Positions 25,054-37,426 of a stretch of 64,000 nt of DNA are shown here, one piece after another. Origin of the DNA: Mycobacterium barrassiae (GTDB lineage: Bacteria; Actinomycetota; Actinomycetes; Mycobacteriales; Mycobacteriaceae); the NCBI RefSeq assembly GCF_025822765.1, contig NZ_JACKUK010000027.1, positions 63,626-127,625 on the forward strand, given 5' to 3'. Every line of letters starts with the position of its first letter. Within the stretch, counting starts at the first letter, position 1. A model generated the notes under the pieces. It made no database searches. It saw nothing but the letters and a program-made list of their open reading frames with translations, and had not been told where the DNA came from. A program made the translations under genes and the position numbers.

Positions 25054-26823
25054 ATGTTGTGGGCGCTGCTGCGACAGTATGCGCGGCCGTACCGGTGGCT
25101 GCTCGCGATCGTGGCGGTGTTCCAGTTGATCAGCACCCTGGCATCGCTGTACCTGCCAACCGTCAACGCGGCGATCATCGACGACGGCGTCGCCACGGGG
25201 AATCTGCGAAAAATCGTCGAACTGGGCGGCGTGATGCTCGCGGTCACCGCGCTGCAGGTGGTCTGCGCGATCGGCGCGGTGTACTTCGGGTCTCGGGCCG
25301 GCACCGGTTTCGGACGTGACCTCAGGTCGGCGATCTTCCACCACGTCACCGGCTTCTCCGCCGAGGAGACGGCACGCTTCGGTGCATCGTCGCTGCTGAC
25401 CAGGACCACCAACGATGTGCAGCAGATTCAGCTGCTCGTGCAACTGACCTGCACCATGCTGATCACGGCGCCGCTGATGTCGATCGGCGGCATCTTCATG
25501 GCGATACATCAGGACGCCGGCCTGTCGTGGCTGCTGCTGGTCAGCGTGCCGATCCTGGCCGCAGCCAACTACTGGATCGTGTCGCACCTGCTGCCGATCT
25601 TTCGCCGCATGCAACGGCTGATCGACGGCATCAACCGGGTCATGCGGGAACAACTCGCCGGTATCCGGGTGATCCGCGCGTTCACCCGGGAAACGCACGA
25701 ACGCAACCGCTTTGAACAGGCCAACCAGGCGCTGGCGGATGCCGCACTGGAAGCAGGACGCTGGCAGGCGCTCATGCTGCCGACGACCACACTCGTCATC
25801 AACATCTCCAGCGTCGCGCTGATCTGGTTCGGCGCCCTGCGCATCGACGCCGGCCAGATGCAGGTCGGCTCGCTGATCGCGTTCCTGTCGTACTTCATGC
25901 AGATCCTCATGGCGGTCCTGCTCGCCACGTTCATCCTCGTCGTCATTCCCCGCGCATCCGTCTGCGCCGACCGCATCGGCGAGGTGATGTCCACCGAGCC
26001 GCAGATCACCAGCCCACAAAATCCCGTCCGGCCGGCCACCATCAGGGGCGAGATCCACCTGGATCACGTCACGTTCAGCTATCCCGGTGCCGAGCGCCCC
26101 GTGCTGCAAGATGTCTCGCTGATCGCACGGCCGGGGACGACGACGGCGATCGTCGGATCCACCGGCTCGGGCAAGTCGACGTTGGTGTCGTTGATCTGCC
26201 GGCTGTTCGATGTGACATCCGGAGCGGTGCGCATCGACGACATCGACGTGCGCGACCTCGATCCCGAACAGCTGTGGGCGGCGATCGGTGTGGTCCCGCA
26301 GCGGGGCTACCTCTTCTCCGGCACCGTCGCCGACAATCTGCAACTGGGTGCGGCGCCGGGACAAGTGGTGACCGAAGACGACATGTGGCGCGCGCTGGAG
26401 GTGGCCGCCGCCGATGACTTCGTGCGCGCGCACGCCGACGGGTTGGCCATGCGGGTCGCCCAGGGTGGCATCAACTTCTCCGGTGGCCAGCGCCAGCGTC
26501 TGGCGATCGCGCGTGCCGTCATCCGTCGCCCCGCGATCTACCTGTTCGACGACGCGTTCTCGGCCCTGGATGTGCACACCGACGTCCGCGTCCGCACCGC
26601 GCTTCGCGAAGTGTCCGGACAGTCGACAGTTCTGATTGTCTCCCAACGTATTTCGACGGTATCCGCCGCGGATCAGATCGTCGTCATCGACGACGGTCGC
26701 GTTCGCGGAGTGGGCACCCACGAAACACTGCTGGCCGAATGCCCCGAGTACGCCGAGTTCGCCGACTCCCAGGCGCTGGGAGCCGCAAGTGGGCCCAACG
26801 CACGTGAAGGGAGCGCCACGTGA
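25054..26823 (+). CDS. ABC half-transporter (Rv1273c-like)
   Basis: 589 residues. An ABC exporter-type six-helix domain (residues about 1-320, beginning [15 protein letters not shown]) is fused to an ATPase domain: Walker [11 protein letters not shown]-loop [13 protein letters not shown], signature [13 protein letters not shown], Walker [13 protein letters not shown]. Here the residue after Walker B is Asp-Ala rather than Glu, so this site may be catalytically degenerate, a common feature of one half of heterodimers. The start was set by resemblance to the tuberculosis protein; an in-frame ATG 20 codons upstream exists. It overlaps its partner by four bases. Confidence 0.9.
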
Positions 26824-28724
26824 GCGGGCCCATGGCACGACCCATCCGGGGTGCGGTCCAGGCTCCGACCGAACGGTCGCGCGACTTCAAGGGTTCCGCG
26901 ATCCGACTCGTCAAACAGCTGACCCCGCACCGGGGCCTGGCCGCCACGGTCGTTCTGCTCGGTGTCGGCGGGATCGCGATAGGCGTCGTCGGCCCCCGCA
27001 TCCTCGGGCATGCGACCGATCTTCTCTTCAACGGTGTAATCGGCCGACAGTTGCCGGCCGGACTGACCAAGCAACAGGCCATCGAGGCGGCCAGGGCGCG
27101 CGGCGACAACACCTTCGCCGATCTACTCTCGGGCATGAACGTGGTACCCGGACAAGGGGTGGACTTCGGCGCCGTCGCTCGCACGCTGGCCTTGGCACTG
27201 GCGCTGTATCTGGTTGCCGCGCTGATGGTCTGGCTGCAGGCCAGGCTGCTCATCGTCGCGGTGCAGCGCACGATGGTGGACCTGCGTGCCGATGTCGAAA
27301 ACAAAGTGCACCGGATGCCGTTGTCGTACTTCGACTCCCGCCAGCGTGGCGAAGTGCTGAGCCGCGTCACCAACGACGTCGACAACATCCAGACCTCGTT
27401 GTCCATGACCATCAGCCAGCTGATGACATCGGTCCTGACCGTGTTCGCGGTGCTGGTGATGATGTTGACCATCTCCCCGCTGTTGACGCTGCTCGCCGTG
27501 ATCACCGTGCCGCTGTCGCTGTGGGCGACAAGGGTTATCGCCCGCCGCTCCCAACGCCTGTTCGTCGCGCAATGGACCAATACCGGCCGCCTCAACGCGC
27601 ACATCGAGGAGACCTACAGCGGTTTCACCATCGTCAAGACGTTCGGCCATCGCGCCCAGGCACAGGATCAGTTCCGGGAGTTCAACGACGACGTGTACGG
27701 CAGCAGCTTTGGCGCGCAGTTCTTTTCGGGCCTGGTTTCGCCTGCGACGGTGTTCATCGGCAACATCAGCTACGTCGCGGTGGCGGTGGTCGGCGGCCTC
27801 CAGGTCGCAACAGGTCAGATCAGCCTCGGCAGCATCCAGGCGTTCATCCAGTATGTGCGGCAGTTCAACCAGCCGCTGACGCAGGTCGCCGGCATGTACA
27901 ACACGCTGCAGTCCGGCGTGGCCAGCGCGGAGCGGGTCTTCGACCTCCTCGACGCCGAGGAGGAGTCGCCGGAGCCGGCGCCGATGCCGCACTCGCCGGA
28001 CGGGCGCCCCGGCCGCGTCGAATTCAGGAACGTGAATTTCAGCTACCAGCCCGGCACCCCGGTCGTCAGTGACCTGTCACTGGTTGCCGAACCCGGAACC
28101 ACGGTGGCGATCGTCGGACCCACGGGCGCCGGCAAGACGACACTGGTGAACCTGCTGATGCGGTTCTACGAGGTCGACTCGGGCCAGATCCTGGTGGACG
28201 GCGTCGACATCGCCACCGTGAGCCGTCAATCGCTGCGGTCGCGTATCGGCATGGTGCTGCAGGACACCTGGCTGTTCGCCGGGACCATCTACGACAACAT
28301 TGCCTACGGCCGCCCGGACGCCAGTGAGGACGAGGTGATCGCGGCCGCCACCGCCGCGTACGTCGACCGGTTCGTCCACCAACTGCCCGACGGATACCAG
28401 ACCTGGGTCAGGGATGACGGGACGAACATCAGTGCCGGCGAAAAGCAGCTCATCACCATCGCCCGCGCGGCACTGTCCAGCCCGCACCTGTTGGTGCTCG
28501 ACGAGGCGACGAGTTCGGTCGACACCCGCACCGAGTTGCTGATCCAGCAGGCGATGGCCGAATTGCGCCGGGACCGGACGAGTTTCATCATCGCGCACCG
28601 GCTTTCGACGATCCGCGATGCCGACGTCATCGTCGTCCTCGAGGCGGGCAGGATCGTCGAAAAGGGCAGCCATGACGAGCTGATGGCTAAGCGTGGCGCT
28701 TATTGGTCTATGACACAGACCTAG
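26820..28724 (+). CDS. ABC half-transporter (Rv1272c-like)
   Basis: 634 residues, with a GTG start overlapping the preceding stop. A six-helix membrane domain with an extended first extracytoplasmic loop ([20 protein letters not shown]...) is followed by an ATPase domain: Walker [11 protein letters not shown]-loop [12 protein letters not shown], signature [13 protein letters not shown], Walker [13 protein letters not shown] with canonical Glu, H-loop IAHRLSTI. The signature deviates (SAGEK for SGGQR). It should pair with the preceding half-transporter as a heterodimer with one competent site. The tuberculosis orthologue Rv1272c has been linked to long-chain fatty acid import in a heterologous host; the direction and substrate here are inferred. 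Confidence 0.9.
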
Positions 28725-28743
28725 TCGCCGTACTCTCGAAACG

Positions 28744-30906
28744 ATGAGCTCGACGGTGTACACCTTCTGCAGATACTGCTCGGCGGCATGCGGTATCGAG
28801 GTCACGGTCGAGAACAACAGGGCGACGCGGATCTCGCCGGACAAGCAGAATCCACACAGCTGGCAGGACTTCTGCGCCAAGGGCAGAACCGCGAATCAAC
28901 TCGTCGAACATCCGCGCCGGATCATGGCACCGATGCGCCGAGTCGGCGACGCGTATGTCGAGGCCAGTTGGGACGAGGCGATCGCCGACATCGCCGCGCG
29001 GATGAACGCGCTGATCGCCGCCGACGGGCCGGACGCGATCGGCCTCTACTACGGAAACCCCACCGGCTTCTCGTCGTCGAACGTGCTGTTCATGATGGCG
29101 TGGCTCGACGCCGTCGGAACCCAGAACCGGTACGCCGTCGGCTCGGTGGACCAGAACGCCATGCACGTCGTCGCGGACGCGATGTACGGATCGATCCTGA
29201 TGGCGCCGGTTTCTGACGTCGACAACTGCGACTACTTTCTACTGGTCGGCGCGAACCCCGCAGTGAGCGCATGGAATTGGCTGGAAACGGTGCCCGGGGG
29301 CTGGAAGCGAACACTCGAACGTCAGCGGCAGGGCGCGACGCTCGTCGTTGTCGATCCGGTACGCACCGAGACCGCGGACAAGGCCGATCTCCACATCGTG
29401 GTGCGGCCGGGACAGGACTGGGCGCTGTTGCTCGGCATGGTCAAGGTCATCCTCGACGAGGGCCTCGAGCACGCCGCTGACTGCCGCGACCTGGCGACAG
29501 GAGTCGACGTACTCCGCGACCTCGTCGCAGATGCCGACCTCGACGACCTGGCCGTGCGCTGCGATGTCCCCCGCCCCGTCATCGAGCAGGCGGCACGGGA
29601 TTTCGCCGCGGCACCACGCGCCATGGTGGTCACCCGCACCGGCGTCTCGCTGCATGTCACCGGGACCATCGGCGAGTGGTTGGGCCACGTGCTCAATGTG
29701 ATCACCGGTCGCATGGACCGACCGGGCGGCCGCAGGTTCGAACCCGGCTACATCGACGCGCTGAGGTTATCCGGCCTTGCCACCCCGCCGACCCACAAGA
29801 GCCGCCTGAAGGGTCGTGACCTCGTCGCGGGTGCGCATGCGCTCGCCGAGTTGTCCGACGAGATCCTCACCCCGGGCCCCGGCCAGATTCGCGCGATGGT
29901 CATCAATTGCGGCAACCCGGTGGTGTCCGGCCCGCACGGCGCGAAACTCGACGAGGCGCTCGCCGACCTCGACCTGTTGGTGGCAATCGATTTGGTACAG
30001 CGGGAAAGTCATCGTCACGCGCACTGGCTGCTGCCTGCTGTGCACTGGCTGGAGCGCGACGACCTGATGGCATTGACCAGCAATCTGCACGATGAGCCGT
30101 ACGTACAGTACGGACAACGCGCGCTCGATCCACCACCGCAAGCACGCGAGGAGTGGCGCATCTTCGTCGACCTGGCGATCGCGATGCGCAAACCGCTCTT
30201 CGGGGTGAAGGGAATGAACGGCTTCGTCAGGGCCACGCGCACACTGGCCCGGCTCACCGGCAGATCCGCACTGGAGTTCACCCCACAGTGGCTGAACCGA
30301 CTGTTCATCGCCACCAGCCGAAAAGTCAACGGCCGCAAGCTGAGCTGGCGCGATCTGATGAACAACCCGCACGGTCTGGTACTCGGGCCAAGCGAGTTCG
30401 GCCATTTCCGCGCCGCACTACGCACCGAGGACAAGAAGGTGCATGCGGCTCCACCCGAGTTCGTGGCCCGAGCACGTGAACTGCTCGCCGAACCGCCACC
30501 TCAGGCTCCAGCCCGGTATCCGTTCCAGCTCGCGAACCGACGGAACCGACACTCGATGAACTCGTGGCTCAACGAGCTTCCCGGACTGCATCCGTCGGGT
30601 AAACGCAACGACGTGATCATCAACACCGAAGATGCCGCGGCGCTCGGAATCACGGACGGCGACACCGTGCGTGTGTTCTCCGAAGTGGCCGAGATCAACC
30701 TCGCCGCATCGCTGAGCGATCGCGCGCGCCGCGGGGTGGTGATCGTCGATCATGGTTGGGGCTCAAGGGTATTCGATCCTCGAGGGCACTGTGCGCCGGA
30801 GAAGTACGGGGTGAACCGCAATCTGCTGGTCGACAACGCCGACGTCGATCCGCTTTCGCAGACCGCACCACTGAACTCGTCGTACGTCGGTGTCGAACGC
30901 CTTTAG
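28744..30906 (+). CDS. Molybdopterin oxidoreductase with N-terminal [4Fe-4S] site
   Basis: 720 residues. Cys9, Cys12, Cys16 and Cys44 (TFCRYCSAAC... DFCAKG) give the iron-sulfur motif of the formate dehydrogenase/nitrate reductase superfamily. The body carries bis-MGD binding features (GLYYGNPTGFSS, LLVGANPAVSAW, MVINCGNPVVSGPHG) and a C-terminal molydop_binding domain (RRNRHSMNSWLNE, NTEDAAALGITDGD). No Tat signal, so cytoplasmic. At the usual metal-ligand position near residue 138 the sequence is YAVGSVDQNA, with no Cys or Sec, suggesting a serine- or aspartate-type ligand. No electron-transfer partner gene is adjacent. Substrate unknown. Confidence 0.85.
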   Translation: MSSTVYTFCRYCSAACGIEVTVENNRATRISPDKQNPHSWQDFCAKGRTANQLVEHPRRIMAPMRRVGDAYVEASWDEAIADIAARMNALIAADGPDAIGLYYGNPTGFSSSNVLFMMAWLDAVGTQNRYAVGSVDQNAMHVVADAMYGSILMAPVSDVDNCDYFLLVGANPAVSAWNWLETVPGGWKRTLERQRQGATLVVVDPVRTETADKADLHIVVRPGQDWALLLGMVKVILDEGLEHAADCRDLATGVDVLRDLVADADLDDLAVRCDVPRPVIEQAARDFAAAPRAMVVTRTGVSLHVTGTIGEWLGHVLNVITGRMDRPGGRRFEPGYIDALRLSGLATPPTHKSRLKGRDLVAGAHALAELSDEILTPGPGQIRAMVINCGNPVVSGPHGAKLDEALADLDLLVAIDLVQRESHRHAHWLLPAVHWLERDDLMALTSNLHDEPYVQYGQRALDPPPQAREEWRIFVDLAIAMRKPLFGVKGMNGFVRATRTLARLTGRSALEFTPQWLNRLFIATSRKVNGRKLSWRDLMNNPHGLVLGPSEFGHFRAALRTEDKKVHAAPPEFVARARELLAEPPPQAPARYPFQLANRRNRHSMNSWLNELPGLHPSGKRNDVIINTEDAAALGITDGDTVRVFSEVAEINLAASLSDRARRGVVIVDHGWGSRVFDPRGHCAPEKYGVNRNLLVDNADVDPLSQTAPLNSSYVGVERL

Positions 30907-31469
30907 AGCTGCGGCCCCTCGGCGCGCAGGTCGTCGACGTTGCGCATCGCGTCGCGCAGCTTGGTCAGCCATTCGTCGGCATGCTCACCCACCAGCCTGA
31001 CGCACCACGCGAGCGCATCGGAGCGCGACCGCGCCACACCGGCGTCCACCAACGTGTCGAGCACCTGGCGTTCGGGTTGCCGGAGACGTGTCATCACCGG
31101 AACGGCGATGTGGGTGAACAGGACCCGTTCGGATTCCTCGTCGCCGGTCTGGACGCCCCACGCGACCTTGCGCCCGAAGCGGGCCTCCGCTTCGTCGGCG
31201 ATGCGCATGCGCTCGGACCGGGTCTCCTCACGGAAGCGCGCGATCCTGCCGGATGCGTGCGCTTCACTCTCCTCCCCCTCGATGTCGGGGAGGCGGCCGA
31301 CGACCGTGATCTCCTCGCGGTCCACGACGACCGTCGGATCGCCGGCGAACCAGCCTTCGGGAAGCCGACCGGCGAACCAGTCGGCAGCGTCACCTGCGTC
31401 GGGCTGCTGAGCCTGTTGCCAACCGCCGGGACGGCCGGACCGCCGACCGTGGGAATGATGGGTTCTCAT
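30903..31469 (-). CDS. Conserved protein with C-terminal ribbon-helix-helix-like segment
   Basis: 188 residues. The N-terminus is disordered and Gly/Gln-rich; the middle holds ADWFAGRLPEGWFAGDPTVV and an acidic/arginine-rich helix (IARFREETRSERMRIADE), then a beta-type strand. The last 60 residues run from RLRQPERQVLDTLVDAG through VARSRSDALAWCVRLV to a helix: a strand, a helix, a turn with RSRSDAL and a second helix, the layout of MetJ/Arc (RHH) DNA-binding domains. Three 8-base tandem repeats cover its start codon, so it probably represses itself. It overlaps the convergent molybdopterin gene by four bases. No known function. Confidence 0.6.
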   Translation of the reverse strand: MRTHHSHGRRSGRPGGWQQAQQPDAGDAADWFAGRLPEGWFAGDPTVVVDREEITVVGRLPDIEGEESEAHASGRIARFREETRSERMRIADEAEARFGRKVAWGVQTGDEESERVLFTHIAVPVMTRLRQPERQVLDTLVDAGVARSRSDALAWCVRLVGEHADEWLTKLRDAMRNVDDLRAEGPQL

Positions 31470-31490
31470 GATTACATGATTACATCGTTA
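31467..31490. promoter_or_regulatory. Three tandem 8-bp repeats over the RHH gene start
   Basis: On the plus strand CATGATTA occurs twice head to tail (31467-31474, 31475-31482), followed by CATCGTTA (31483-31490, two changes). The first copy contains the initiation codon of the minus-strand gene. Ribbon-helix-helix repressors such as MetJ bind contiguous 8-bp boxes, so this looks like an autoregulatory operator that could block both transcription and ribosome entry. The AT-richness stands out in this genome. Confidence 0.6.
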
Positions 31491-31543
31491 CAACACAGAT
31501 GGGACGGCTTTCTCCCGAAGCGAACAGCGGTCAGGGGCGCGTC

Positions 31544-31747
31544 CTACTTGCGGTTCATGAGCAGTACGGCGCCACCACCCACAACGGCGCCGATGAAGAG
31601 CAGGACCGCCAGCGTCGGACTGACCAGCCACCACACCAGAGCCAACCCGATGATCACCGGGGAGGCGACGAACAGCACCATGCCCGGGTGCTGCTTGATG
31701 ACCGCGAGAGCGCTCTGCGCACGCACCCGGTCAATTTCTTTTGCCAT
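31544..31747 (-). CDS. Small two-helix membrane protein
   Basis: 67 residues: a charged N-terminus (MAKEIDRVRAQSALAVIKQH), two adjacent hydrophobic helices (MVLFVASPVIIGLALVWWLV and LAVLLFIGAVVGGGAVLL) and a short basic tail MNRK. Coding is supported by the sharp polar/hydrophobic layout and by the ATG lying in the short divergent region with the AIM24 gene. No family recognised. Confidence 0.55.
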   Translation of the reverse strand: MAKEIDRVRAQSALAVIKQHPGMVLFVASPVIIGLALVWWLVSPTLAVLLFIGAVVGGGAVLLMNRK

Positions 31748-31785
31748 GCCCCAAGGATGCCAGTCGTCGGACTACTTTGGTCGCC

Positions 31786-32673
31786 ATGACGGGACCAAAC
31801 AGCGGAAGCTGGCGGCCGGACCCCGAAGGTCGCTACGAGCACCGATGGTGGGACGGCCAACGGTGGACAGATCAGGTTTCCCACCAAGGGCAGATGCTCC
31901 GAGCGCCGCTGGGCGGCGCACCTCCGCCAGGGCCTCATCCACCACCACAACCCGGGCCGCCCCAGGCGATGGCCATGGGCGGTCAGCCGCCCGGTGACGG
32001 CTTCGCGGGCATCACAGGCGATCTGGTCGACGGGCGCTTCAGCGAAAAGGAAGCCAAGGCGATCGCCAACCAGAACTCGAAGCTGCTGCGCGTGCGCCTG
32101 GGCGAACCCTTCATGGCCCGTCAGGGTTCGATGGTGGCCTACCAGGGCAACGTGGACTTCGCCTTCGAGGGTGGCGGTGCGTCGAAGTTCATCAAGAAAG
32201 CGCTCACCGGCGAGGGGCTTCCGCTGATGAGGTGCCAGGGTCAGGGCGACGTGTTCCTAGCCGAGCGGGCGTACGACGTGCACCTGCTGAACCTGACGAA
32301 CTCCGGGTTGTCGATCAGCGGTAAGAACGTGCTGGCCTTCTCGTCGAGCCTCGACTGGAACATCGAGCGCGTCAGGGGCGGCAGCATGGTGGCCGGCGGG
32401 CTCTTCAACACCACCCTGCGCGGTACGGGTTGGGTGGCGCTCACCACCGACGGGCCGCCCGTGGTGCTCAATGCGGCTGAGGCGCCGACGTTCGCCGACA
32501 CCAACGCGGTGGTGGCGTGGTCGGCCAATCTGCAGACCCAACTGAAGACGAGCTTCAAGGCGGGCGCACTGATCGGGCGCGGCTCTGGCGAGGCGATTCA
32601 GGTGTCGTTCTACGGGCAGGGCTTCGTGATCGTGCAACCGTCGGAGGGTGTCCCACCTGTCGCCTCTGCCTGA
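31786..32673 (+). CDS. AIM24 family protein with N-terminal DUF2510 motif
   Basis: 295 residues. Residues 1-30 contain WRPDPEGRYEHRWWDGQRWTD, the DUF2510 motif that usually precedes other domains in actinobacteria; next comes a Pro/Gly/Gln-rich linker; from about residue 90 the AIM24 beta-barrel-like domain begins (LLRVRLGEPFMARQGSMVAY, GGGASKFIKKALTGEG, FVIVQPSEG). AIM24 is named after a yeast mitochondrial protein; its bacterial role is unsettled. The ATG is 38 bases from the divergent membrane protein start. Its 3' end is 28 bases from the convergent dtd. Confidence 0.85.
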   Translation: MTGPNSGSWRPDPEGRYEHRWWDGQRWTDQVSHQGQMLRAPLGGAPPPGPHPPPQPGPPQAMAMGGQPPGDGFAGITGDLVDGRFSEKEAKAIANQNSKLLRVRLGEPFMARQGSMVAYQGNVDFAFEGGGASKFIKKALTGEGLPLMRCQGQGDVFLAERAYDVHLLNLTNSGLSISGKNVLAFSSSLDWNIERVRGGSMVAGGLFNTTLRGTGWVALTTDGPPVVLNAAEAPTFADTNAVVAWSANLQTQLKTSFKAGALIGRGSGEAIQVSFYGQGFVIVQPSEGVPPVASA

Positions 32674-32701
32674 ACACCCTGGCCTGAAAACCCTGGCCTG
32701 A

Positions 32702-33133
32702 TCACAACTCCAGCAGCACCGTCACCGGGCCGTCGTTGACGAGCTCGACCTGCATATCCGCACCGAACACGCCGGTTTCGACGTGTGCGCCGAGCCCGCG
32801 CAGCGCGTCGGCGAACGCGGTCACCAGCGGTTCGGCGACGGCACGCGGGGCGGCAGCGTTCCATGCCGGCCTACGGCCCTTGGCGGTGTTGGCATAGAGC
32901 GTGAACTGGCTGACAACGAGGACCGAGGCGCCGACGTCGCTCGCCGATTTCTCGTCGTCGAGAATGCGTAACTGCCAGAGCTTTTCGGCCATGCGCCGTG
33001 CCGTCGACGCGTCGTCGTCGTGGGTGACGCCCACCAGTGCGACGAGCCCCTGACCCTCGGGGCGCACCGCACCGACGACCTCGCCGTCGACCCGTACCGC
33101 CGCCGACGTCACCCGTTGCACGAGAACACGCAT
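32702..33133 (-). CDS. dtd: D-aminoacyl-tRNA deacylase
   Basis: 143 residues, the normal length of Dtd. Starts [17 protein letters not shown] and contains the hallmark [15 protein letters not shown], which includes the catalytic Thr loop, and the GPVT motif ([11 protein letters not shown]) at the C-terminus. It removes D-amino acids wrongly loaded on tRNA, protecting translation. Cytoplasmic homodimer. It reads away from the copper operon, with the copper-type palindrome between them. Confidence 0.95.
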
Positions 33134-33206
33134 GGCAGCCGATGCTGCCATGTACGCGACGACATGCGACGAGGTAGCCCTGTTGGAGCGCCACGCGGGC
33201 CCTTTG

Positions 33207-33227
33207 TCATACCCCGTGGGGGTATGA
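33207..33227. promoter_or_regulatory. Perfect copper-type palindrome overlapping a -10 element
   Basis: TCATACCCC (33207-33215), spacer GTG, GGGGTATGA (33219-33227): nine-base perfect arms. C/G-run palindromes with outer TA are the usual operator of CsoR/RicR-type copper sensors. TATGAT at 33223-33228 is a good -10 box for the chaperone gene at 33241, giving a leader of only about six bases; repressor binding would cover it directly. No csoR/ricR gene is present in the window, so the regulator acts from elsewhere. Confidence 0.65.
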
Positions 33228-33240
33228 TACTGATGTAGTC

Positions 33241-33450
33241 ATGAGCACGACGACAACTGTCACGGTCACCGGGATGAGCTGCGGACATTGTGCCGCGTCA
33301 GTGCGTGAGGAGATCACGGAGATCCCGGGCGTTCGCGCGGTCGAGGTGGACCTGACCAGCGGCACGGTCACCATCGACAGCGACAGCGTGGTCGAGTCCT
33401 CGGCGATCAGGTCTGCGGTCGAGGACGCCGGCTACCAGCTGGCGAGCTGA
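33241..33450 (+). CDS. CopZ-like heavy-metal chaperone
   Basis: 69 residues making a single HMA domain: TVTGMSCGHCAASV with the metal-binding CGHC pair, then a ferredoxin-like fold (VRAVEVDLTSGTVTID) ending GYQLAS. Carries Cu(I) in the cytoplasm and hands it to P1B ATPases. First gene of a three-gene copper operon; its TGA overlaps the ATG of the next gene. Expression is probably nearly leaderless from the promoter at 33223. Confidence 0.9.
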   Translation: MSTTTTVTVTGMSCGHCAASVREEITEIPGVRAVEVDLTSGTVTIDSDSVVESSAIRSAVEDAGYQLAS

Positions 33451-34334
33451 TGAAGACTGGACAGAAGGTCACCGCGTTCGTCGCCGCCCTTGCGGCGGTG
33501 TTCGCCGTCGCCGTGTGGATCGGCAACGCCGTCAGCCGGGACGAATCGACTGTCGCGGCCGCCGAGGAACTGCCGGGCGGCCTGCAGTCAACGCAGGACG
33601 GGTACACGCTCGCATTGAATGATTCGATCGCGACGGCAGCACCCAACGCGGAGTTGAGCTTTCGCATCCTGAGTCCCAGCGGCGCACCGGTGCAGCGGTA
33701 TGTCGAGACCCACGAGAGGCCGTTGCATCTGATCGTCGTCCGCAACGACCTCGCCGTGTTCCAGCACGTCCACCCGACCCTGGACGGACAGGGCACATGG
33801 AGTGTGCCGCTGAACCTCTCCCGCGCGGGCGACTACCGCGTCTACGCGGATTTCATGCCCTCCGGCGGGCCGGCCTTGACGCTGGGAGCCAACCTGCACG
33901 TCGCAGGCAAGTACGACCCGCAACCGCTTCCCCCGGCGTCGACGACAGCGGAGGTCGACGGCTTCACGGTGACACTCAGCGGCACCCCGAAGGCCAATGA
34001 GGCGTCGATGCTGACCCTGTCGGTCAGCCGTGACGGCGAGCCCGTTCGCGACCTCCAGCCCTATCTCGGTGCCTACGGACACCTCGTCGCGGTACGCGCA
34101 TCCGATCTGGCCTACCTGCATGTGCATCCAATGGGTCAGGTGGGAGACGGCACCACCACGCCAGGCCCGGACATCGTGTTCCACACGACGTTTCCCAGTG
34201 CGGGTGCCTACCGGCTGTTCCTCGACTTCCAGCACGGCGGCGTCGTCCGCACCGCCGCGTTCACCGTGAACATCAGCGAGACCGCGCAGCAGGATGCGGC
34301 GCCATCCGGCGGTGGTGGCGGGCATCAGCACTGA
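33450..34334 (+). CDS. Exported His-rich protein of the copper operon
   Basis: 294 residues with one N-terminal membrane or signal segment ([19 protein letters not shown], residues 7-25) and an extracytoplasmic body. Two 17-residue modules share the pattern H-L-x-x-V-R...H-V-H-P at residues 93-109 and 211-227, and the tail is GGGGGHQH. There are no cysteines, so metal binding, if any, is by histidine. Each module lies in an immunoglobulin-like beta region. Sandwiched between the chaperone and the copper ATPase with overlapping or 1-base junctions, it is probably a periplasmic copper-binding or delivery protein. No named family recognised. Confidence 0.75.
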
Positions 34335-34335
34335 C

Positions 34336-36531
34336 ATGTCAGTCGTGGAACTCTCGGTCGACGGCATGACATGTGCGTCGTGTGCCAGCCGAATCGAGAA
34401 GAAGCTCAACAAGATCGGCGGCGTCACCGCGACGGTCAACTTCGCTACCGAGAAGGCCCGCGTCGAGTTCGGTGACGACATCACCGCCGATCTGCTCGTG
34501 AAGACGGTCGAGGAGGCCGGTTATCAGGCTCATCTGCCGACGTCGGAAACGACTGAGGCGGAAGCGGATCCGACGGCTGCGCTTCGCACGCGGCTGCTGA
34601 TCTGTCTGGCCATGACGGTGCCGGTCGTCGCGACGGCGATGGTGCCCGCACTGCAGTTCATGTACTGGCAGTGGGTGTCGCTGGCGCTGGCGACCCCCGT
34701 TGTGCTGTGGGGCGCATGGCCGTTCCACCGGGCGGCGTGGGCGAATCTGCGGCACGGCACCGCCACCATGGACACGTTGATCTCCATGGGGACCCTGGCC
34801 GCCCTGGGGTGGTCGGTGTACGCCTTGTTCTGGGGTGCGGCCGGCACGCCGGGTATGACGCACGCGTTCGAGCTGACGATCGGCCGCACCGACGGCAGCG
34901 GCAACATCTATCTCGAGGCCGCGGCGGGAGTCACCACCCTCATTCTCGCCGGGCGCTATTTCGAGGCCAAATCCAAGCGCCGCGCGGGCGCGGCATTGCG
35001 CGCGATGCTGGAACTCGGGGCCAAAGACGTGACGGTGCGGAGAAACGGTGCCGAGCAACGCATCCCGATCGAAGCGCTGAAGGTCGGCGACGAATTCGTG
35101 GTGCGCCCCGGCGAGAAGATCGCCACCGACGGCGTCGTCGTGGAGGGACGTTCCGCAGTCGACGCGTCGCTGCTGACCGGAGAATCGGTACCCGTCGAGG
35201 TCGAGCCCGGCTCTGAGGTGGCCGGTGCCACGGTCAACGCCGACGGCACGCTGGTGGTGCGGGCAGACCGGGTAGGCGCCGACACCGCACTGGCCCAGAT
35301 AAGCCGACTGGTCGAGGAGGCCCAGAACGGTAAGGCGCAGGCCCAGCGACTGGCCGACCGGATCTCCGGCGTCTTCGTCCCGATCGTCATCGCGTTATCC
35401 GTTGCGACACTCGGATTCTGGATCGGCACAGGCGGACCGGTGGCCGCGGCGTTCACGGCGGCCGTCGCGGTGCTGATCATCGCGTGCCCATGCGCGTTGG
35501 GTCTCGCGACACCGACGGCGTTGATGGTCGGCACCGGTCGGGGAGCGCAGCTGGGCATCTTGATCAAAGGGCCCGAGGTGCTGGAGTCGACCGAGGAGGT
35601 CGACACCATCCTGCTGGACAAGACGGGCACGGTGACGACCGGCACGATGACGCTGGTCGACGTGATCACCGCCGATGGCGAGCATCCCGAACAGCTCCTT
35701 CGGCGCGCGGGTGCGCTCGAAGGGGCGTCCGAACACCCGATTGCGAAGGCCATCGCGGCCGGCGCGCAGGCCACGGTGGGAGAACTCTCCCAAGTAACGG
35801 ATTTCACCAATCTGCGGGGACTCGGCGTCCGCGGCGTCGTCGACGGCGCCGAGCTTACGGTCGGGCGACCGCGGCTGTTCACCGAGATGTCCGAGAAACT
35901 TTCGGAGGCCCTGCGAAGCGCGGAATCCGCGGGCAGGACGGCGGTCGTGGTCGGCGGGGACGGCGCCGCCCTCGGCGTGCTGGTGGTCGCCGACGCGGTG
36001 AAGCCGACGTCCGCCGATGCCGTCAAAGAGCTTCGTGCTCTTGGTCTTACGCCGATCCTGCTCACGGGCGACAACGAGGCGACGGCGCGAACCGTCGCCC
36101 AGCAGGTGGGCATCGACGAGGTGATCGCCGGAGTGCTACCGGAGGAGAAGGTCGACGTGGTCAAGCGCCTGCAGGCCGACGGGAAAACCGTCGCGATGGT
36201 CGGTGACGGCGTCAACGATGCGGCCGCTCTCGCGCAGGCCGACCTGGGACTGGCCATGGGCAGCGGCGCGGACGTGGCGATCGAGGCAAGCGATCTGACC
36301 CTCGTTCGCAACGACCTGCGCACCGTCCCGGATGCGATCCGCCTGTCGCGCCGGACGCTGGCGACGATCAAGGGCAACTTGTTCTGGGCGTTCGCCTACA
36401 ACGTCGCGGCGCTGCCGTTGGCCGCCGCCGGCTTGCTCAACCCGATGATCGCTGGCGCCGCAATGGCTTTCAGTTCCATGTTCGTCGTCAGCAACAGCCT
36501 GCGGCTGCGCCGGTTCACGCCGTCGCGCTAG
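34336..36531 (+). CDS. P1B-type copper-translocating ATPase (CtpA/CtpB/CtpV-like)
   Basis: 731 residues. One N-terminal HMA domain with GMTCASC, eight predicted helices, the metal channel motif [11 protein letters not shown], the A-domain TGES, P-domain [10 protein letters not shown] with phosphorylated Asp, nucleotide-domain SEHPIAKA and hinge [10 protein letters not shown]. Exports Cu(I) across the membrane using ATP. The ATG lies one base after the preceding stop region. Substrate inferred from CPC, the HMA cysteines and operon context; which of the mycobacterial Ctp proteins it equals cannot be decided from sequence alone. Its last 17 bases overlap the convergent epimerase gene. Confidence 0.92.
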
Positions 36532-37426
36532 TCACCAGTTCCGGGTGGAACTTGGCCGCCATGCGGCGCAGGCCGTCCTTCCAGTCGACGGTCGCGGGTC
36601 CGATGAGTTCGCGCATGCGCGTGACGTCGAGGGGGTTGCCGCGCAACGCCTGGTCACTCTCCTCGAACGACGGCTGGATCCCGATGAGGCCGCCGAGAAA
36701 CGTGCACCACTCCTGGATGCTGACGAACTGCTCGCTGGCCCAGTTCATGGTGGTGGCCGGAACCGAGGCGATCTCGAACAGCTTCGGGATGGTCGCGATG
36801 ATGTCGTCCTCGTGCATGAGGTTGTAGTGCGCCGGCCCGCCGGGCGGAACCGGGATCGGCATACCACTGAGCATCATCTCCATGTGAAAGAACGGCCACC
36901 CGCCGTTGTCGCCGTACGGGACATTGAGCCGGGCGATGGTGCTGGGAATGCCGAGCGCGCGCGCCATCGTGCGGACGACGACCTCGCCGGCGATCTTGGA
37001 GATGGAATACGTTGGCAACATTGGCTTGTGGTTGTCGCCAAGCGCGGCGCGTTCGGTACGGGGGTCGTCGCCGGGTGGGTCGTAGACGGCCCCGGACGAG
37101 CAGTGCAGGAACGCCTTCATGTCCCGACAGTGCGCCATCAGAAGTCCGACCGACTCCGCATTGGCGGCAAGGTCCTTGTCCCACCGGCCGCTCTTGGCCA
37201 CCGCCAAGTTGATGACGTAGTCGAAATCTGCCGGAATTCCGGTGAAGTCACCACTGGCCAGGTTGACCGTTTCGCAGCGCACCCCGGACTTCTCCAGCTC
37301 GTCTCGAGCCTCGGCATCGGTGAAGCGGGCGATCCCCCACACTTCGTTCTCGGCGGCCAGCGCCTTGGCGACCGGCATGGCGACCTGCCCGGTTGGGCCC
37401 GTGATGAGAATCTTCGAACCGCGCAT
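36515..37426 (-). CDS. NAD-dependent epimerase/dehydratase (extended SDR)
   Basis: 303 residues. N-terminal nucleotide-binding [11 protein letters not shown], then [10 protein letters not shown], catalytic YSISK with Ser upstream ([12 protein letters not shown]), and a C-terminal substrate domain ([20 protein letters not shown]). This is the extended SDR layout of sugar-nucleotide epimerases and related reductases. Substrate unknown. Starts at ATG giving MRGSKILIT; a longer frame upstream adds seven residues without conservation. Next gene on the same strand upstream is a secreted protein, 26 bases away. Confidence 0.85.

Follow-up and report, generated by a model that had tools for sequence, protein, structure and literature searches.

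Among described operators built of short, adjoining boxes, the met boxes of MetJ and the heptads of the plasmid omega repressor come closest to the element considered here. MetJ binds contiguous, palindromic 8-bp boxes, regulates its own gene and controls a regulon, and omega binds non-palindromic repeats with a 7-bp pitch, direct or inverted, that are tightly packed over a promoter. A row of three contiguous octamers overlaps the start codon of abmR, the gene for the transcription factor AbmR, in a 64,000-nucleotide stretch of the Mycobacterium barrassiae genome (assembly GCF_025822765.1, contig NZ_JACKUK010000027.1, positions 63,626 to 127,625; hereafter the window). The abmR boxes resemble the met boxes in their contiguous 8-bp layout, in the autoregulation proposed here and probably in holding one protein unit each, but they are non-palindromic, can be flipped and are found at one gene; with the omega heptads they share short, non-palindromic repeats, direct or inverted, packed tightly over a promoter, at a pitch of 8 bp instead of 7 bp. 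Comparison of sequences makes it likely that AbmR binds the three octamers as adjacent units and that they form the operator through which it acts on its own gene; such an operator would work like those of MetJ or omega, with no claim that AbmR is a ribbon-helix-helix (RHH) protein.

AbmR is reportedly auto-inhibitory: a 2018 abstract by Girardin is said to state that abmR promoter activity goes up in an abmR knockout, and also that DNA binding by AbmR requires C-terminal arginines. AbmR (Rv1265 of M. tuberculosis) is described as binding ATP and DNA and inducing the small RNA (sRNA) Mcr11 (PMC8628891). The window gene lies on the minus strand, where the ATG at 31469-31467 opens a frame of 188 codons whose product matches the NCBIfam model NF058631 ("ATP-binding transcription factor AbmR") with an E value of 1.2e-81; the match is full-length (272.2 bits against a cut-off of 160), with protein residues 25-188 aligned to positions 2-167 of the 167 in the model. 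By its sequence the protein thus belongs to the known family AbmR/Rv1265 and is not uncharacterised, as the preliminary description had suggested it might be. All 102 sampled actinobacterial homologues match the same model at a threshold of E up to 10 (best 1.7e-85; the curated cut-off per member was not given). A Pfam scan of the window protein returned a single match (E 0.27), and one scan of viral contigs gave zero matches to phage-borne AbmR relatives. The gene and its boxes are as follows.

30903..31469, minus strand: abmR coding sequence (188 aa), orthologue of M. tuberculosis Rv1265, NF058631.

31485..31492, minus strand: box 1, TGTAACGA (genus consensus TGTAACGG), the most variable box in column counts over 124 upstream regions.

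31477..31484, minus strand: box 2, TGTAATCA, from the same column counts.

31469..31476, minus strand: box 3, TGTAATCA, which runs into the ATG at 31469-31467, in frame after the last TAAT.

On the plus strand, positions 31467-31490 read CATGATTA CATGATTA CATCGTTA, and the letters, the coordinates and the overlap with the abmR start codon had been given correctly in the preliminary description. Read on the strand of the gene, the array is TGTAACGA TGTAATCA TGTAATCATG, the final three bases of which are the start codon; because the TG that precedes each TAAY is also conserved, the units are better read as TGTAACGA / TGTAATCA / TGTAATCA(TG). The array thus has the tandem contiguous 8-bp boxes at a gene start that characterize a MetJ-type operator but lacks its palindromic boxes, since TGTAAYNN is not self-complementary. 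Each box junction within 31467-31490 reads ATGTAA, a start codon with a stop codon immediately after it, just upstream of the abmR start; these junctions could affect translation if boxes 1 and 2 were transcribed.

Within the genus, where abmR was matched in 128 of 148 genomes, the array is universal among the loci compared. The sample comprised 125 loci (30 + 95), with short or broken matches in three genomes (G075, G088, and G114) left out, and one locus (L210) had no upstream DNA, leaving 124 for the box counts. Three TGTAAY-NN boxes stand at 8-bp pitch against the start codon in all 124, with 17-22 of the 22 consensus letters kept, and in the GTAA of box 2 the G, the T and the first A are invariant, the last A being present in 123. 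Information content ranges from 0.9 to 2.0 bits over the boxes and does not exceed 0.26 between -60 and -34; a second element (see below) lies between these two regions. An in-frame ATG follows the last TAAT after 1 nt in 109 loci and after 2 nt in 13 (122/124 together); the other two, L161 and L167, are mis-anchored in the column-count alignment, and their ATG is in frame in the other register. An additional base after the last TAAT, with the 8-bp register otherwise kept, is found in 13 of the 124. In some loci (L126, L028, and L139 are examples) box 1 is immediately preceded by an inverted box, CCATTACA, which makes a fourth octamer in the opposite orientation.

The array is also confined to this gene at the stringencies searched. 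When up to three mismatches were allowed, the two-box pattern TAATCATGTAATCATG had three matches in the window against a shuffle mean of 0.02, two of them being the abmR array. With up to one mismatch, the same pattern gave 104 matches in 99 of the 148 genus genomes, and the three-box pattern TGTAAYNN-TGTAAYNN-TGTAAY gave 141 in 113; reversed-pattern controls gave 0 matches for either in the 148 genomes. A recount on the loci placed 103 of the 104 two-box and 140 of the 141 three-box matches at the abmR start, and the remaining match of each adjoins a second fragment of abmR at the end of a contig (G138). Over 200 genomes of the order, exact GTAATNATGTAATC occurs at 49 sites in 47 genomes; 48 of these sites are at the abmR start or no more than 500 bp upstream of it (47 on the strand of the gene), and the single site elsewhere (G163) has no obvious link in its flanking frames. 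The genome of the window itself has five matches with up to two mismatches, two of which are the array, against two in the control. The preliminary description had suggested that the octamer could lead to the rest of a regulon; no regulon emerged at the stringencies searched, as the three other matches in the window's own genome are weak and no more than the control and the order contributed one lone site. The third match in the window, TACTGATGTAGTCATG at 33228-33243, overlaps the start codon of a gene for a heavy-metal-associated protein and was considered and rejected as a second target, since it is kept in only 1 of 15 other orthologues inspected, the closest one, L387 (16 loci compared at that place with the window's own included, from the best of 56 matching genomes).

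This distribution bears on the view that the boxes belong to another regulator or to a promoter class, with Cmr, CRP, and a sigma factor as examples. In gel shifts Cmr binds the promoter region of rv1265 (PMC5499769), expression of the sRNA antisense to rv1265 drops in a CRP knockout (PMC3207917), and the AT-rich boxes look like -10 elements. A global regulator or sigma factor should nevertheless have many sites, whereas the array occurs at abmR only with up to one mismatch and has no two-box or three-box match in any of the 20 genus genomes that lack an abmR match (some of which are incomplete); the CRP site, moreover, lies elsewhere, 107 bp from the sRNA start (PMC3207917). We regard this explanation as quite unlikely.

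Beyond the genus, a 37-sequence genus profile detects AbmR in 143 of the 200 genomes searched from the order and in 48 of the 246 from the phylum; the genus is part of both sets. From these, 96 non-genus loci were examined (36 returned by the order and phylum searches and 60 from the remaining matches), of which L238 and L314 have almost no upstream DNA, so that paired boxes were counted in 94. Paired boxes lie within 300 bp upstream in 86 of the 94, as a direct pair on the strand of the gene in 74, and in 0 of 96 downstream control stretches of equal length (the same-genus locus L225 is left out of the counts of 86 and 74 and may be included in the control total). Same-strand spacing over the 96 loci is dominated by 8 bp (82 loci), followed by 17 bp (13), 25 bp (10), 16 bp (9), and 9 bp (3). 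Inverted boxes that follow a direct box on its downstream side occur at offsets of +9 (12 loci) and +17 (11 loci), the values expected of flipped octamers, and thus occupy the same 8-bp lattice. An alignment of 74 loci on their last box shows a third and weaker box 16 bp upstream of it, a layout shared with mycobacteria. Ten loci, every one of them in family f29, have a TTGAC whose first base stands exactly 21 bp ahead of the last box, so that this box would sit on the -10 element; by eye 7 of the 10 read TAATNT at that position, and many loci of other families have a purine-rich ribosome-binding stretch after the array. Conservation of the boxes, as judged from these alignments, reaches across the phylum. 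The expectation that contiguous boxes would be kept in orthologues at 8-base spacing is borne out (124/124 in the genus, 82/96 outside it), orthologues without octamers are absent from the genus sample, and outside it eight of 94 lack a pair within 300 bp; from the proposal of an uncharacterised one-gene autoregulated switch, the one-gene operator of contiguous 8-bp boxes is retained and the word uncharacterised is not.

The tie of one protein family to one cis element over the phylum looks like that of an autoregulatory operator and suggests that the binder is AbmR. In the mechanism that we propose, each AbmR unit, probably a dimer, would occupy one 8-bp box, with neighboring units binding cooperatively; bound AbmR would cover the promoter, the transcription start, and the start codon of abmR, and would shut off its own transcription as a dedicated negative-feedback switch. 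Because the boxes flip yet keep their pitch, the unit on each box is probably two-fold symmetric, most simply a dimer; the fixed 8-bp pitch points to contacts between neighboring protein units; and because the array covers the promoter or start region, the bound protein should repress, which makes repression the probable outcome of binding. The mycobacterial abmR transcript is probably leaderless, a class that accounts for a third of mapped starts in M. avium (PMC3774663). For a transcript starting at the ATG, the TAATCA of box 2 lies roughly where a -10 element would be; it does not match TANNNT, and a -10 role is suggested by its spacing and by analogy with the f29 family outside the genus. 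This approximate placement is consistent with a leaderless transcript.

A further possibility is that the boxes are conserved for the promoter of the antisense sRNA, and not for control of abmR. Mcr11 is transcribed opposite to rv1265, from the gap before that gene (PMC8628891), the antisense sRNA has its -35 element at the start of Rv1265 (PMC3207917), and a homologue of the sRNA lies in the same place in M. avium (PMC3774663). One genus locus, L179, has the same array between neighbors whose translations, read by eye, are an Rv1264-like adenylate cyclase upstream and a PknH-like kinase downstream, the gene order rv1264-abmR-pknH that the window lacks; on its opposite strand, again by eye, box 1 helps to form TACACT, a candidate Mcr11 -10 element. 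In the M. tuberculosis-like branch the array lies at the Mcr11 promoter site and may therefore serve both directions there. The base that completes the antisense TANNNT hexamer is, however, present in only 11 of the 124 genus loci (one of them the mis-anchored L161) and absent from the window, yet the boxes are present in all 124, so that Mcr11 does not explain their conservation. Other genera keep the boxes at other distances from the gene, and an Rfam scan of 26000-37000 returned zero families up to E 1. That the Mcr11 promoter is what keeps the boxes in place is highly improbable.

The fold with which AbmR would contact the boxes was compared with RHH proteins, as the preliminary description had read a strand-helix-RSRSDAL-helix C terminus like those of MetJ and Arc. 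RHH Pfam families did not match the window protein up to E 1, nor did RHH_1 match it at E 0.001 in a genome search. Over the 102 members, RHH-type Pfam and NCBIfam matches are all weak, with CcdA in three (best 0.14), ParD in two (0.038), and CdrS in three (0.041), and the unrelated DUF3742 matches more members than any of these (30 of 102, best 0.0081); CcdA and CdrS are taken here to be RHH proteins. In hhalign comparisons with sequences drawn from other genomes, the score of the 102 AbmR sequences against 20 RHH_1 sequences was reached by 4 of 100 column shuffles, and with 30 RHH_1 and Arc sequences as the target, 12 of 60 shuffles reached the real score; in hmmsearch comparisons the best control frame was outscored by none of the 102 members under the 20-sequence RHH model and by 10 of 102 under the 30-sequence model. 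The RHH alignments cover mainly the RSRSDAL helix. A search of PDB sequences at E up to 10 gave no match with the genus profile and one irrelevant match (E 0.7) with a wide profile. Profile scores within the range of shuffles leave the assignment of AbmR to the MetJ/Arc class unsupported and that reading of its C terminus unconfirmed.

The S4 domain (PF01479), originally added to the RHH tests as a control, aligns by its helix-turn segment with the C-terminal stretch DTLVDAGVARSRSDALAWC of AbmR with an hhalign probability of 57 over 19 columns only, a score that 0 of 60 shuffles reach; this stretch scores better with the S4 segment than with the RHH profiles. By hmmsearch with the S4 model, the AbmR median is 9.0 bits and the best unrelated control scores 7.4 bits, which 85 of 102 members exceed; a control frame that scored 9.5 is abmR's own and was replaced by that best unrelated frame. 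The Pfam S4 family does not match the window protein, and SYY_C-terminal, which we take to be S4-like, gives weak matches in 23 of the 102 members (best E 0.0051). AbmR differs from S4 proteins in that the strands that follow in the S4 domain are outside the alignment and in that its reported function is DNA binding.

Likeness to an RNA-binding segment is one reason to ask whether the repeats act in RNA, either as sites for AbmR or another factor on a leader or as ATG-TAA start-stop mini-ORFs that sequester ribosomes at the abmR start. The 19-column S4 likeness, which the shuffles do not reach, and the 85 of 102 members that outscore the best unrelated control frame would fit such a role, as would the ATGTAA or GTGTAA found by column counts at the box junctions of most genus loci. 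The first junction is AGTAA or ACGTAA in some genus members (L006, L009, and L023), however, and boxes 1 and 2 would lie outside the transcript if the mycobacterial transcript is leaderless. The inverted boxes found outside the genus, many of them on the same 8-bp lattice, suit double-stranded DNA, and in the ten loci of the f29 family, though there only, the last box overlaps a likely -10 element. On this evidence action in RNA is unlikely.

Several observations weigh against the array being an operator for AbmR. In eight of the 94 non-genus loci no pair lies within 300 bp. Seven of them are without a GTAA box in that interval, namely L315-L317 and L325 and also L279, L298, and L318, the last three of which may start further upstream; L268 has one box beside a degenerate box. 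Inverted boxes upstream of a direct box lie at -8 (5 loci) and -16 (7 loci), one base off the lattice. In L179 the -10 and -35 elements of Mcr11 would both be covered by the boxes, which is hard to square with activation of this sRNA by AbmR; with AbmR over both elements, the reported activation needs another explanation. AbmR has no accepted assignment to a DNA-binding fold. A review has AbmR slow RNA polymerase by binding both polymerase and DNA (PMC12101431), in which case the octamer boxes need not be involved, and AbmR is reported at the cell envelope near the metal efflux protein PacL1, an efflux-platform protein beside which Rv1265 was strongly labeled (PMC13043812). With these points taken into account, AbmR acting through the octamers on its own gene is still the reading that we consider likely.

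The second conserved element of the upstream region stands apart from the boxes and is described by one further feature.

31509..31525, minus strand: imperfect palindrome GTTCGC-TTCGG-GAGAAA (genus consensus GTTCGCC-N3-GGNGAAC), marked by information peaks at -33 to -17 from box 1.

The best match to GTTCGCC-N3-GGNGAAC starts at -35 to -32 from box 1 in 119 of 124 genus loci, and the palindrome resembles the ClgR motif GTTCGC-N5-GCGAAC. After re-anchoring, five of its seven pairs are nearly invariant or change on one side alone; two-sided changes are few, T-A replacing G-C in 10 of 124 loci at the outer pair and C-G in 8 at the inner pair, and one pair reads G-T in 48 loci, G-C in 45, and G-A in 20, a series only partly tolerable in a sense-RNA hairpin. 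From its pattern of substitutions the palindrome is read as a DNA element, an RNA hairpin being the less likely alternative; the Rfam scan described above was empty here too.

At a distance of 1.8 kb from abmR, a heavy-metal-associated protein gene stands beside a P-type ATPase gene (33241-36531, from translations read by eye). Among the 60 genus genomes listed, at least 18 have a match to this protein no more than about 8.2 kb away from abmR (distances taken by hand). Upstream of the window's heavy-metal-associated protein gene is ATACCCCGTGGGGGTAT (33209-33225), presumably a CsoR-like copper operator, with similar palindromes seen by eye before 15 other orthologues. Independently, Rv1265 has been reported close to the metal efflux protein PacL1 (PMC13043812).

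The available excerpts of the AbmR literature outside the 2018 and 2020 primary papers make no mention of an octamer operator, its pitch, its capacity to be flipped, or its range over the phylum, and those two papers may describe part of it. A wider picture can be offered tentatively, and we hold it to be possible though doubtful as a whole: AbmR may be a phylum-wide, self-dedicated regulator that uses an orientation-flexible 8-bp lattice as its operator and a fold that is neither a recognized RHH nor a standard helix-turn-helix, and in mycobacteria this lattice may lie on the start codon of a leaderless gene and also be able to serve an antisense sRNA promoter. In the tuberculosis bacillus AbmR has been studied as an ATP-binding regulator of an abundant sRNA. 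An operator with a fixed 8-bp pitch, conserved over a phylum, would say where it binds and would suggest how it assembles, and an array found at no other gene in the genus genomes, with up to one mismatch, would imply a very small set of direct targets. The AbmR family itself is far older than the pathogens in which AbmR was described.

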